Below, one piece after another: positions 2,976 to 21,329 of a stretch of 39,339 nt of DNA. Position 1 is the stretch's first letter, and the number at the start of each line of letters is the position of its first letter. Made by a program: the position numbers and the translations under genes. The notes beneath the pieces are model-generated. The model worked only from the letters and a program-made list of their open reading frames with translations. It was not told the origin of the DNA and made no database searches. Source of the stretch: Clostridiaceae bacterium HSG29 (GTDB lineage Bacteria; Bacillota; Clostridia; Peptostreptococcales; Acidaminobacteraceae); assembly GCA_030377915.1 (NCBI GenBank), contig JAUCFZ010000007.1:1-39339 (forward strand). The letters run 5' to 3'.

Positions 2976-3356
2976 TTGAAAAAATTATTAGAAAGAGATG
3001 ATGATTTTCTTTTAAGAAGAAATCATATTAAAAATTTATCTGATGAAGAATTAAAGAATAAATTTTGGAAATTATCAGGAGAAATTGTAGATCCAATGAT
3101 AGATTTAGCAAGAACTCATACAACTCCTTCAATTGAGAGATCAGTTTTAATAAGAATGGGATTCTCTTCTCTTGAAGCAAAGCCGTTAGTTGAAATGGTA
3201 TTAGATAGAGGGTTAATTGGAAAAGGTGCTGGACATGTTGTTTATGTAGTTTCTAAGGAAAAAAACATGGCAGTTAGAGATGCTGGTTTAGAATTACTTG
3301 ACGGCAAACACTGGGATTTTGTTTTAGATTATTTCAACAAAAGAGGTGAAAAATAA
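2976..3356 (+). CDS. oraS: D-ornithine 4,5-aminomutase, S (small) subunit
   Basis: This is the small subunit of the adenosylcobalamin- and PLP-dependent aminomutase that moves the delta-amino group of D-ornithine to C4, giving 2,4-diaminopentanoate. The protein has 126 residues, close to the usual size of about 120. The start is a TTG at 2976, two bases after the ortB stop, with the ribosome site (GGAGGG, 2964-2969) lying inside the end of ortB. No ATG is better placed, so the TTG is taken as real. Its stop overlaps the oraE ATG by one base (TAATG), which would favour stoichiometric synthesis of the two subunits. Confidence 0.93.
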   Translation: MKKLLERDDDFLLRRNHIKNLSDEELKNKFWKLSGEIVDPMIDLARTHTTPSIERSVLIRMGFSSLEAKPLVEMVLDRGLIGKGAGHVVYVVSKEKNMAVRDAGLELLDGKHWDFVLDYFNKRGEK

Positions 3357-18128: not shown

Positions 18129-19691
18129 ATGAAATCAAAATATAAAATCTTATTTCCAATATTATTTTTTATAATAGCATTTTTTTTGTTTTTAAATATT
18201 AATGAAGATAATAAAAGAAATCTAATTGAACGTGTTTATATTGAAGAAGAAATTATTTCAGAAGAAATTCTTAAAACTGTTGATATGTATTTTAAACAGC
18301 TAAAATATACATTGAATTTTTTAGCTAGTGATGAGGATATTATAAATTTTAATAGTAAGAAATCTGAAAAAATACTAAAAAATTTTTATAATTCTCATAA
18401 AACTGAATTATCAGGTATTACTAGAATTGATAAAAACGGAAGAATTATATATACATACCCAGAAAATAATAGCGTTATTGGATTAGATGTTTCAAAACAG
18501 CCTCATAATGCATATGTTATTAAGAACCAGAAACCGGTTGTTAGTGAAGTGTTTAGAACACTTCAAGGGTATTATGCTATAGCTTATGCTGTTCCTGTCT
18601 TTGATGGAAATTCTTATGATGGTGAACTAACTTCATTAATTACTGCTGAGAATTTATCTGAAAATTTTATTATTAATAGAGCAAACAAAAATATGCAATT
18701 TAAATTAATAAGTGAAAATGGAAATATTTTATTTGATAATGAATTAGAATTGATTGGAAGTAATATAAACTACGTTATTGAAACTGAAAATTATCAAAAT
18801 CATCAAAATGTTATTGGGAAAATGTTAAATAAAGAGAGTGGAAGAATTAATTATCAGACGAAAGAAAATAATAAAATTATTGAGAATTATGGCGTTTTTC
18901 AAAATATTGAAATTGAAAATACATTTTGGGCAATATTTGTAACTACAACCGATAAAATCATATATCATGATGTTGAAAGTAATTCACAAAAAATTGCAAT
19001 AGCACTTATAATTTTATTTATATTAAGTATGTTTATATTTATTGAAATTGCAAATAATTATATTTCTAATAAAAATAGAATTGAAAAGGAAAAAATAGAA
19101 AATAAATTTGAAGCTATATTTAATCAAAGTGTTGATTTTATTGCAATTTTAGATTTAGAAGGAAAAGTTTTACGTGTAAATCATTTAGCACTTGAATATG
19201 CTGATTTAAAAGAAGAAGAAGTAATAGGTAAGTATTTTTGGAATACTGTTTGGTGGTCTCATTCAAAAGAATTACAAGAACAAATAAAACAAGCAATATT
19301 TGATAGTTTAAATGGTATATTTAGTAATATTAATGTAGTTCATTATAGTAAAGAAGGAGAAAAAAATTATTTTGCTACAGTTATAAAACCAGTTTATGAT
19401 AGTAATGGAAAAATGCTTTTACTTATTCCACAAGGCAGAAATATTACTGAAATTATAAATGCAGAAAATAAATTACGAGAACTTAATGAAAATTTGGAGA
19501 AACGTGTTGATGAACGAGTAAAAGAAAATGAAAAAATGCAAAAATATTTAATGCAAAATGAAAATAAAATAATTCTTGGGAATTTAGTTGCTGGAATAAC
19601 CGAAACAATAATCAATAATATAATTAAAACAATTTTTTTACTTAAATTATCACTCATTTACCCCTTGTATACTAAATATATATTAATTTAG
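18129..19691 (+). pseudogene. Cache-PAS sensor histidine kinase, truncated at an IS110 element
   Basis: This is the 5' part of a membrane sensor kinase. It has an N-terminal membrane helix, an extracellular Cache-like domain (with FRTLQGYYAIAYAVPVF), a second membrane helix near 295-310, a PAS domain (about 325-445) and a coiled coil running into LGNLVAGIT, where T491 ends at 19601. The family continues there with HExxTPLG, the phospho-accepting H-box. Instead 29 unrelated residues encoded by the IS end lead to a stop. No dimerisation/ATPase domain remains, so it cannot autophosphorylate. A matching C-terminal half starting HEISTPLG lies on the minus strand at the far end of the window. AAGAGGTGG precedes the ATG. 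Confidence 0.88.
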
Positions 19692-19695
19692 TATA
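19668..19695. repeat. Perfect inverted repeat in the IS left end
   Basis: TATACTAAAT (19668-19677) and ATTTAGTATA (19686-19695) are exact complements separated by 8 nt. It supplies the stop codon of the truncated kinase and may block read-through into the bridge-RNA and transposase region. Confidence 0.6.
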
Positions 19696-19759
19696 ACTCT
19701 CCTTTCTATTTTCTCTTTTATACTTTTAATTTATTAATATTATCCTTTATAATATTATT

Positions 19760-19930
19760 AGTTACAGTTGTGGATTGTTTCATATTTACCTTACAGCTTG
19801 ACTGTTTTTAGGAGGATATAACCACAACTGATTTCTTTAAAATTAATTAGCTGGTTAACGATTAACGTTTTATTTACAAGGTTATTCGAATTCAGTTTGT
19901 GGAACTAACCATTTGTAACAATATTTTAAG
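19760..19930 (+). ncRNA. Candidate IS110 bridge RNA
   Basis: IS110 elements of the IS110 group encode a bridge RNA of roughly 180 nt just upstream of the transposase, with target-binding and donor-binding loops. Here a TATAAT (19748-19753, with a weak -35 TTTAAT at 19725-19730) would start an RNA near 19760. Two stem-loops follow. The first is CAGTTGTGG/CCACAACTG (19765-19773 with 19822-19830), with an inner ACAG/CTGT hairpin. The second is TGGTTA/TAACCA (19852-19857 with 19906-19911). Each encloses exactly 48 nt. The second loop carries GGTTATTC (19880-19887), complementary to GAATAACC at the left junction (19594-19601). The role is inferred; the pairings are seen. Confidence 0.55.
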
Positions 19931-19942
19931 GAGGTTCTATTT

Positions 19943-21121
19943 ATGCTATTTATTGGTATCGATGTAGCATCAGACAAACACGATGCTGTTATTACTTCAC
20001 TTTATGGTGAAATCATCACTGAGCCATTTACTATTACTAATGACCTTGAGGGATTTAAAAAACTCCGCAAGGAAATTCTTTCCCATACGGAGTCTCGTCA
20101 CGAGGTTCATATAGGAATAGAAGAAACAGGCATTTATTCAAAGAACATTTGCGAGTTTCTAGCGTTATGTGACTTTAATGTCTACATGATTAATCCAGTT
20201 CTCACAAGTAATAGTCGTAAATCTCAATCAGTCCGACTTACAAAAACAGATCCAATCGATGCTTTAGCTATATGCAGATACGTGGAGTTTAATTTAAAAC
20301 GTCTCAATTCCTATACTCCATCATTATACACCTTTAATGAGATAAAATCACTATCTAGAGCAAGATTAGATATTCAATCTCGCCTAATTAAAGCTAAAAC
20401 AGAGTGGGCACGTCTTTTAGACATTACTTTCCCTGAGTTTAAAAAATCCTACAATCACCAATCTAAATGGGTTTATAAACTTTTTTACAATTATTCGACT
20501 ACTGCTAAAATTGCTAAAATGCATACTAATACCTTAGTTAGCATACTTGCAATAAAAAGCGATAGATTCATAGCTGCTAATCATATTAAAAAGATTGCTA
20601 AGAATACAATAGGCCAGGTTTCTAGATCTAATACTTTCTTAATAAATAATACAATTAGTGATATCAATCATTATGCAAAACAAATGAATGAGTTAGAAAA
20701 AGAAATTGAAACTCTTGTCACAGAACATTTTTCTAATATATTAACCATTCCAGGAGTTGGTCCAATAACAGCTGGCTTAATCATTGGAGAAATTGGTGAT
20801 ATTAACCGTTTTAATTCTCCAAGTGCATTAGTAGCCTATACTGGTTTAGATCCAATTGTATACGAATCCGGCAAATTTAAAGCTAAGCGCGTAACTATCT
20901 CAAAACGTGGTTCTAAGTATCTAAGAACTGCCATTTTTACATCAACAAAATTTGCATGCATAAATCCCAATGTTAAAGATAATAAGTTCAGGCAAAAATA
21001 TCTAAAAAAACGAAGCCAAGGAAAACATCATAACTCTGCAATTTGTCATGTAACTAAAAATATGACAAATTTAATATTTTCACTTTTACATACAGGTACT
21101 AAATATAGTTATGATTATTAA
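19943..21121 (+). CDS. IS110-family transposase (DEDD recombinase)
   Basis: This is a 392-residue RNA-guided-type recombinase. The N-terminal RuvC-like domain shows D7 (GIDVASDKHD), E60 (EETGIY), D103 and D106 (KTDPIDA), the DEDD set. A coiled middle region leads to the C-terminal Tnp domain (IPGVGPITAGLI, then VAYTGLDP, ESGKF and ISKRGSKYLR). S309 in ESGKF is the likely catalytic serine by comparison with the family. The ATG follows AAGGAGG. The length is normal and the frame is open, so the enzyme may be active. A structured non-coding region precedes it, as in IS110 elements that carry their bridge RNA on the left. Confidence 0.93.
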   Translation: MLFIGIDVASDKHDAVITSLYGEIITEPFTITNDLEGFKKLRKEILSHTESRHEVHIGIEETGIYSKNICEFLALCDFNVYMINPVLTSNSRKSQSVRLTKTDPIDALAICRYVEFNLKRLNSYTPSLYTFNEIKSLSRARLDIQSRLIKAKTEWARLLDITFPEFKKSYNHQSKWVYKLFYNYSTTAKIAKMHTNTLVSILAIKSDRFIAANHIKKIAKNTIGQVSRSNTFLINNTISDINHYAKQMNELEKEIETLVTEHFSNILTIPGVGPITAGLIIGEIGDINRFNSPSALVAYTGLDPIVYESGKFKAKRVTISKRGSKYLRTAIFTSTKFACINPNVKDNKFRQKYLKKRSQGKHHNSAICHVTKNMTNLIFSLLHTGTKYSYDY

Positions 21122-21141
21122 TAAAATATAATTTACAATTT

Positions 21142-21159
21142 AAGAGATAAACGTCTCTT
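21142..21159 (+). terminator. Hairpin after the transposase gene
   Basis: AAGAGA-TAAACG-TCTCTT is a perfect six-pair hairpin 20 bases after the transposase stop, followed by GTTTTGTT. The T-run is weak, so it may be a terminator or a structural part of the IS right end. Confidence 0.4.
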
Positions 21160-21292
21160 GTTTTGTTATGCAATTTTTTAATAATTAAGAAAATAAAAAA
21201 TCATTAAATTATTTCTTGACTTTTGTATAGCTAGCTCCTAAATTACCTTACGTTTATCTATACCCAATAATTTAATAATTATTGAACTAATT

Positions 21293-21329
21293 AAAAAATG
21301 AAATGCCTTTTTAAAACATTTCATTTTTT
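21293..21329. terminator. Terminator of the MacB-like ABC operon
   Basis: AAAAAATGAAATG (21293-21305) and CATTTCATTTTTT (21317-21329) form a 13-bp stem with an 11-nt loop. It lies eight bases beyond the permease stop on the minus strand, and its A/T flanks would let it work in both directions. Confidence 0.75.

Follow-up and report, generated by a model that had tools for sequence, protein, structure and literature searches.

Among insertion sequences of the IS110 group, IS621 offers the nearest described counterpart to the locus analyzed here. As published (PMC11208160, PMC11208158), that element carries its RNA in the left end, places the target loop before the donor loop, and has a CT core, and all of these traits are shared by an element in the window, by which we mean the whole 39,339-nucleotide stretch examined (positions 1 to 39,339, forward strand, of contig JAUCFZ010000007.1 from Clostridiaceae bacterium HSG29). 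A junction promoter and a recombinase combining DEDD and serine motifs are also common to the two, and both loops of the present RNA follow an IS621-like plan of stem, left guide, inner hairpin, and right guide. The RNA is approximately 165 nt long here, compared to 177 nt in IS621. Unlike the IS621 RNA, it has no separate 5′ stem-loop that we could identify, a closing helix (P0) encloses both of its loops, and a second copy of one arm of the target-loop stem competes for pairing. The targets differ as well: REP elements are the example given for IS621 in PMC11208160, whereas relatives of the present element are mostly found at translation start sites.

Two other systems bear on the comparison. 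The seekRNAs of ISEc21 and IS1111 elements (PMC11187229) resemble the bridge RNA considered here in being RNAs of a non-coding region, bound by an IS110-type transposase, that select targets; in IS1111 elements, however, the RNA usually lies downstream of the transposase and its target-matching stretches run in reversed order, unlike here. IS900, an IS110-family element of Mycobacterium avium subsp. paratuberculosis and hence actinobacterial, unlike that of the window, inserts at CATGNNNNNNTCTCCTT according to PMC8141618, and a work cited there (Doran, 1997) attributes to IS900, by its title, the targeting of translation initiation signals.

We read the present locus as an IS110 insertion sequence whose left end encodes a bridge RNA of the length given above, with guides both for its targets and for its own joined ends; judging from sequence, we put the probability of this reading at roughly 0.92. 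The element is approximately 1.57 kb long, and its outer features, in window coordinates, are the following:

19664–19665, plus strand: left core dinucleotide CT, with the left target TCACTCATTTACCC on its left; the same CT occurs in the copies of genome G013 and in the other tabulated elements, where the selection pattern of the tabulation required it
19666–19942, plus strand: left non-coding end, 277 nt; to the left of the core, multi-copy relatives differ in their flanks
19668–19673, plus strand: TATACT, putative −10 box of the junction promoter, 17 nt from TTGACT
19943–21121, plus strand: IS110 recombinase, 392 aa, assigned by PF01548, PF02371, NF033542, and alignment with IS621
21216–21221, plus strand: TTGACT, putative −35 box of the junction promoter, assigned by its spacing across elements
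21228–21234, plus strand: left donor sequence TAGCTAG, the right end of the element, from comparison with the ends of relatives
21235–21236, plus strand: right core CT, followed by the right target CCTAAATTACC, from comparison with relatives

The recombinase ORF matches both Pfam domains and scores 214.6 bits against NF033542, "IS110 family RNA-guided transposase" (cut-off 140). It has the DEDD RuvC-like N-terminal domain and serine-bearing C-terminal domain of the IS110 group, and is related by sequence to the recombinases of IS621 and ISCro4, for which structures have been solved. In an alignment with IS621, residues D7, E60, D103, D106, and S320 fall in its acidic and serine motifs, which hold the catalytic residues of that enzyme, S241 among them. 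Against the TIGR-Tas endonuclease model the same ORF scores weakly (38.4 bits; cut-off 100). The nearest relatives found share 62–63% identity over nearly the whole protein and occur as one copy in genome G034 and four in G013; G003 holds a broken relative, and the next group lies at 41% identity and below. No relative was found in a scan of viral contigs, and plasmids and phages yielded solely relatives below 60% identity, which were excluded from the analysis. The element is a single copy in its own draft genome (2.09 Mb, 266 contigs, 86.3% complete). It sits at the 3′ end of an upstream gene (18129–19691) for a dCache-PAS protein, which, judged by eye, seems to end in a coiled coil and a degenerate histidine-kinase phosphoacceptor region; no ATPase domain was matched in this protein.

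Comparison of the four G013 copies fixed the left end at a CT core followed by TGTATAC. The right end (113 nt, 21122–21234) is shorter than the left, and it is the left end that holds the RNA, as in the IS110 group. When the right end, CT, and the left end are joined, 17 nt separate TTGACT from TATACT, and 35 of 38 elements have this spacing; by its sequence, this is a putative promoter formed across the joined ends. The right core would be the CT after TAGCTAG, with the following CCT belonging to the target, because two G538 copies differ directly after TCT (their flanks are alike again further out, so both sites may be related), because this placement yields the 17-nt promoter spacing, and because the reconstructed targets then become ordinary Shine–Dalgarno sites. 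Counting against this boundary, multi-copy elements other than the G538 copies share one to four more bases after CT, which we read as target preference. A right core three bases later (…GCTAGCTC-CT), which leaves a gap between donor guide and core, was considered and dropped on the G538, spacing, and Shine–Dalgarno evidence. No true empty site of the element was seen; the same-genus genome G001 has a partial homolog of the upstream gene (32% over residues 301–450), not an empty site. At its outer edge, the left end has a perfect 10-bp inverted repeat (19668–19695; TATACTAAAT, 8 nt, ATTTAGTATA) that includes the −10 box of the junction promoter, and similar repeats can be seen by eye in several relatives.

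Within the left end, the candidate RNA and its helices are arranged as follows:

19748–19753, plus strand: TATAAT, perhaps an internal −10 box; many of the 19 aligned sequences have a TATA-like box in this position (by eye)
19758–19920, plus strand: bridge RNA, covariance-model match of 113.8 bits, the window being one of the model's 17 sequences
19761–19764, plus strand: 5′ strand GTTA of the closing helix P0, paired by inspection with 19916–19919; the model pairs 19764–19767 with 19913–19916
19765–19773, plus strand: 5′ arm CAGTTGTGG of the target-loop stem, assigned by covariation; the conserved part is 19768–19773
19793–19805, plus strand: target-loop inner hairpin ACAG-cttga-CTGT, with two-sided changes in 4 of 4 pairs and 100% pairing in the MAFFT alignment
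19822–19830, plus strand: 3′ arm CCACAACTG of the target-loop stem; the conserved part is 19822–19827, and 19823–19827 can also pair with 19897–19901
19827–19835, plus strand: 5′ arm ACTGATTTC of the donor-loop stem, with two-sided changes in 7 of 7 pairs, 85.5% pairing, and one T-T mismatch in the window
19857–19869, plus strand: donor-loop inner hairpin AACG-attaa-CGTT, 98.6% paired with two-sided changes, 100% in the MAFFT alignment
19888–19896, plus strand: 3′ arm GAATTCAGT of the donor-loop stem, partner of 19827–19835, assigned by covariation
19897–19901, plus strand: TTGTG, start of a second copy of the target-loop 5′ arm (TTGTGG, 19897–19902), rival partner for 19823–19827
19914–19919, plus strand: 3′ strand TGTAAC of P0, from covariation in relatives, its register in the window being uncertain

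The initial annotation had proposed an IS110 bridge RNA between TATAAT and the transposase on the basis of two stem-loops, and that proposal is now strongly supported by covarying helices in relatives and by guides that match each element's own targets and ends. TATAAT and the transposase start are placed as it described, the arms of its first stem (from 19765 and 19822, enclosing 48 nt at 19774–19821) are exact in the sequence, and this stem is the target-loop stem, conserved and covarying among relatives.

Nineteen upstream regions, the window's included, align over their full length (MAFFT), and 17 of them were used to build the covariance model. Of 112 loci, 77 were searched with the model, the rest mostly representing additional copies or repeated places; the search yielded 57 matches, distributed over 56 loci. 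In 54 cases a same-strand recombinase start follows the match at a distance of −30 to 120 nt; the exceptions comprise an additional copy in L068, the broken element in L041, and L090, whose RNA appears to be partly deleted. The 21 loci lacking a model match are mostly distant relatives, along with L071, where the available upstream sequence is too short, and a plain miss at L100 (37% identity). Across 61 whole genomes the model found 25 matches in eight, the only one in the element's own genome being that at 19758–19920, and 22 of the 25 adjoin a recombinase match from the protein search. The remaining three (G047 C7:25525–25690, G047 C9:1726–1893, and G003 C99:12387–12541) may be solitary RNAs, elements that have decayed, or ones that the protein cut-off missed. 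In L068, two RNA matches (2677–2847 and 2988–3158) with identical score and aligned sequence lie on the same strand with starts 311 nt apart, as if the left end had been duplicated. G052 (L129–L140) holds twelve RNA matches, ten of equal score and two slightly lower, and several of its transposase copies are broken or fragmentary, perhaps because the copies share a recombinase that moves them, or because decay is recent.

The five conserved helices (P0, and a stem and an inner hairpin in each of the target and donor loops) pair in 92.5% of cells in the 55 distinct rows of a model-derived alignment, with a covariation score of 0.572 compared to 0.202 when shuffled (0/500) and 0.055–0.095 when slid, although this alignment was itself fitted to the structure by the covariance model. 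P0 is 93.4% paired in relatives, with two-sided changes in all four pairs. In the MAFFT alignment of 19 sequences, which is not structure-fitted, the target stem and both inner hairpins are 97.7% paired with covariation of 0.295 versus 0.122 (0/500); a count of pair types in that alignment showed no excess over shuffles (8 vs. 8.7). Rfam 15 gave no match in the window at gathering score, and none at E up to 5 within 19600–21300.

Four segments of the two loops are candidates for guides:

19783–19792, plus strand: left target guide TATTTACC with core guide TT, from a permutation test on relatives; in the window 7 of 8 bases match when slipped and 4 of 8 in register
19806–19814, plus strand: right target guide ending in core guide AG, pairing with CT-CCTAAA at 21235–21242
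19848–19854, plus strand: left donor guide TAGCTGG, matching the right end TAGCTAG (21228–21234) at 6 of 7 positions
19875–19880, plus strand: right donor guide TACAAG, pairing with CT-TGTA at 19664–19669

Their order (left and then right target guide, followed by left and then right donor guide) and the strand that each addresses are those set out for IS621 (PMC11208160, PMC11208158). The assignments were tested on 43 elements with 55 distinct insertions, an element being dropped where a contig end was too near or the left-end motif was not found. For the left target guide, agreement between the target and the eight bases preceding the core guide averages 5.07 of 8 positions per element, compared to 3.16 when guides are exchanged (0/5000), and the match is limited to the proper register (5.25 per insertion vs. 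2.4–3.0 when shifted). The right target guide matches at 4.50 versus 2.88 positions under permutation (0/5000; 35 elements, 46 of 55 insertions), the match being carried by the four core-adjacent positions. The left donor guide agrees with the element's own TAG[CT]T[AG]G at 6.45 of 7 positions versus 5.71 (0/5000; 38 elements), and in 39 of 43 elements the right donor guide contains the complement of the first four bases counted from the core (0.907 vs. 0.480, 0/5000), both permutations leaving common descent in. The target tests suffer less from common descent, because targets are not inherited with the element.

For the window's own element, the predicted target is CATTTACCC-CT-CCTAAATT. The right target guide matches CCTAAATT at 6 of 8 positions, plus the core, whereas TATTTACC-TT reaches its seven matches against CATTTACC only if one target C is skipped; either the insertion tolerated a slip, or the guide or flank changed afterwards. 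The readable guides anticipated by the initial annotation are therefore found in the right target guide and both donor guides, while the left target guide fits only with this one-base slip.

Read outward from the left end, the joined flanks of the relatives take the form AAGG-AG-AAAATATG or GAG-AG-GTGGTTAATATG, that is, a Shine–Dalgarno sequence, a spacer, and a start codon. A start codon 3–14 nt after the core that opens an ORF of at least 60 codons is present for 40 of 53 insertions (41 elements; per-element mean 0.71), 38 of them with ATG, compared to 10.8% in a control made up of all AG dinucleotides in the same flanks on both strands, not matched for intergenic position. These 53 are the insertions, among the 55, with the required left flank of at least 250 nt, and the window is counted among the 40, though its ORF is doubtful. 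Of 44 insertions (33 elements), 39 have a Shine–Dalgarno 5-mer across the joined core, versus 11.3% of 4450 control AG sites, and 32 have the 5-mer, start codon, and ORF together, versus 1.7% of the control. In G052, eleven of the twelve copies have ATG 8–9 nt from the core and ten have an ORF of 60 codons or more; two pairs of copies share flanks, so that ten different sites are represented. At the window's own site, the joined target on the minus strand reads TTTAGGAGGGGTAAATG, with a strong Shine–Dalgarno sequence and ATG; the 87-aa ORF that follows is unlikely to be a gene, since it has no Pfam match and runs antisense to the dCache-PAS gene.

Because the target sites of relatives carry Shine–Dalgarno 5-mers, their target guides (e.g., GTGATCACCT or CTATTCTCCT) resemble the anti-Shine–Dalgarno tail of 16S rRNA. 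More distant IS110 types (L113–L128, comprising a second type in G013 and the G087 copies, at approximately 29% identity) show, by eye, a CAT that precedes their C-CT left junction: 5 of the 7 G013 copies that could be read (10 retrieved) have it, as do 6 of 6 G087 copies. These types had been considered as a contrast for target choice and were dropped for that purpose, as the same CAT motif is found there. The IS900 motif, as quoted in PMC8141618, has the same form as the targets here: CAT, a spacer, C-N-C, and CT, equivalent to a start codon and Shine–Dalgarno sequence reversed. IS900 sets a published precedent for targets of this type. In the open-access literature searched, we did not find IS900 treated together with bridge RNA, nor, among the titles and opening abstract lines listed for bridge RNA or IS110, a guide-level link to Shine–Dalgarno sequences; such a link may exist in subscription papers or preprints. 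The terms Shine–Dalgarno, start codon, and ribosome are absent from PMC11208160; PMC11187229 uses ribosome binding site and start codon once each, on other matters, and the Shine–Dalgarno passages of PMC7823733 are unrelated to IS900 targets.

The folding of the RNA admits a further pairing. A free RNAalifold run on the alignment of relatives does not choose the target stem; it pairs the 3′ arm of that stem with the repeat of the 5′ arm that directly follows the donor loop, and also recovers P0. This competing helix is paired in 90.7% of cells with covariation of 0.318 versus 0.135 shuffled, and the target stem in 93.2% with 0.163 versus 0.095; in a few elements all three strands have changed together (CTGTAG/CTACAG/TCTGTA; TAGAGG/CCTCTT/TTAGAG). 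The two helices are mutually exclusive, and both seem to be maintained, because both covary. The region folds somewhat better than its shuffles (z −2.22; −2.76 for 19758–19920). The minimum-energy fold of 19758–19942 prefers other pairings (−39.3 kcal/mol, vs. −24.5 with the conserved helices enforced), and 19758–19920 alone likewise prefers pairings other than the conserved helices.

Three alternatives to this account deserve consideration. The one that survives best, although we think it unlikely, is that the element is a decayed, inactive copy and its RNA only a relic: the element is single in its genome, its left guide is slipped by one base at its own target, and no other site in that genome has fewer than two mismatches to the 16-base guide pattern, with 44 sites at two or three mismatches compared to 69 for a reversed control and so no enrichment. 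However, the recombinase frame is open over all 392 aa with its motif residues present, the element also has both cores, its donor guides, and the sequence of the junction promoter, and further copies or targets may be missing from so incomplete a draft.

It is far less probable that the region is a regulatory 5′ leader of the transposase mRNA, an attenuator or translational switch whose loops are not guides. The RNA does directly precede the AAGGAGG of the transposase, which the minimum-energy fold pairs, and the 3′ arm of the target-loop stem does have two mutually exclusive covarying partners; but four guide segments match element-specific targets or ends, at 0/5000 each and in the order and strands that PMC11208160 reports for IS621, and the helix sequestering AAGGAGG was not seen, by eye, in the two nearest relatives. 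Least credible of all is the initial annotation's second stem, TGGTTA (19852) with TAACCA (19906), as the closure of the second loop, with twin 48-nt loops as a functional plan: letters and coordinates are exact (48 nt enclosed, 19858–19905), the stem fits a low-energy fold (−38.1 kcal/mol), and in the 19-sequence MAFFT alignment it slightly exceeds shuffles in pairing (45.1% vs. 40.4%, 0/500) and covariation (0.088 vs. 0.027, 1/500), yet across 55 distinct sequences it falls to shuffle level in both (43.9% vs. 44.2%; 0.064 vs. 0.061), its second pair is preserved in 1 of 19 sequences, and its left arm would bury part of the left donor guide and overlap the first base of the donor hairpin.

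We accordingly dropped TGGTTA/TAACCA as the donor-loop closing stem in favor of the conserved 19827–19835/19888–19896; of the two stems for which covariation in relatives had been proposed as a check, the first covaries and the second equals shuffles (55 sequences). Since the second stem is not conserved, the equal 48-nt loop lengths look like a coincidence. The pair of stems is weak evidence alone, because at least one perfect 9-bp inverted repeat (loop 10–80 nt) arises in 10.9% of 2000 dinucleotide shuffles of 19700–19942, and at least one 6-bp repeat in 99.3%; the region itself holds 13 such 6-mer matches compared to a shuffled mean of 7.4, overlapping pieces of longer stems being counted separately. 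The first stem is by itself only mildly unusual, and the second is of a chance-level kind.

Returning to the bridge-RNA reading, the element would be expected to work much as IS621 does. In an excised circle, the joined ends would form the promoter TTGACT-17-TATACT and transcribe the RNA and recombinase; the recombinase would bind the RNA, whose donor loop would act on the element's own joined ends as the target loop does on the target, and would then exchange strands at the core, as is known for IS621. Expression from the circle, RNA binding, and strand exchange are all proposed here by analogy with that element. In relatives, the target guides would direct insertion mostly into sites comprising a Shine–Dalgarno sequence and a start codon. 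We also lean, with some reserve, toward a joint proposal: that in this lineage of IS110 the target guides mimic the anti-Shine–Dalgarno tail of the ribosome, making start sites a universal, multi-copy address at gene edges, and that the three-strand choice, in which the 3′ arm of the target-loop stem pairs with either copy of the 5′ arm, could switch the RNA between a target-loop-closed and a donor-loop-closed state.

The locus adds a further candidate bridge RNA with named guides, and its recombinase is only a distant relative of the IS621 and ISCro4 enzymes with solved structures. The family-level result matters more, as it would tie the start-signal preference of IS900 to a changeable RNA guide. 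If true, this would provide an RNA-guide explanation for IS900-type target motifs, and it suggests how such elements may reach numerous sites and yet lie next to genes instead of within them.
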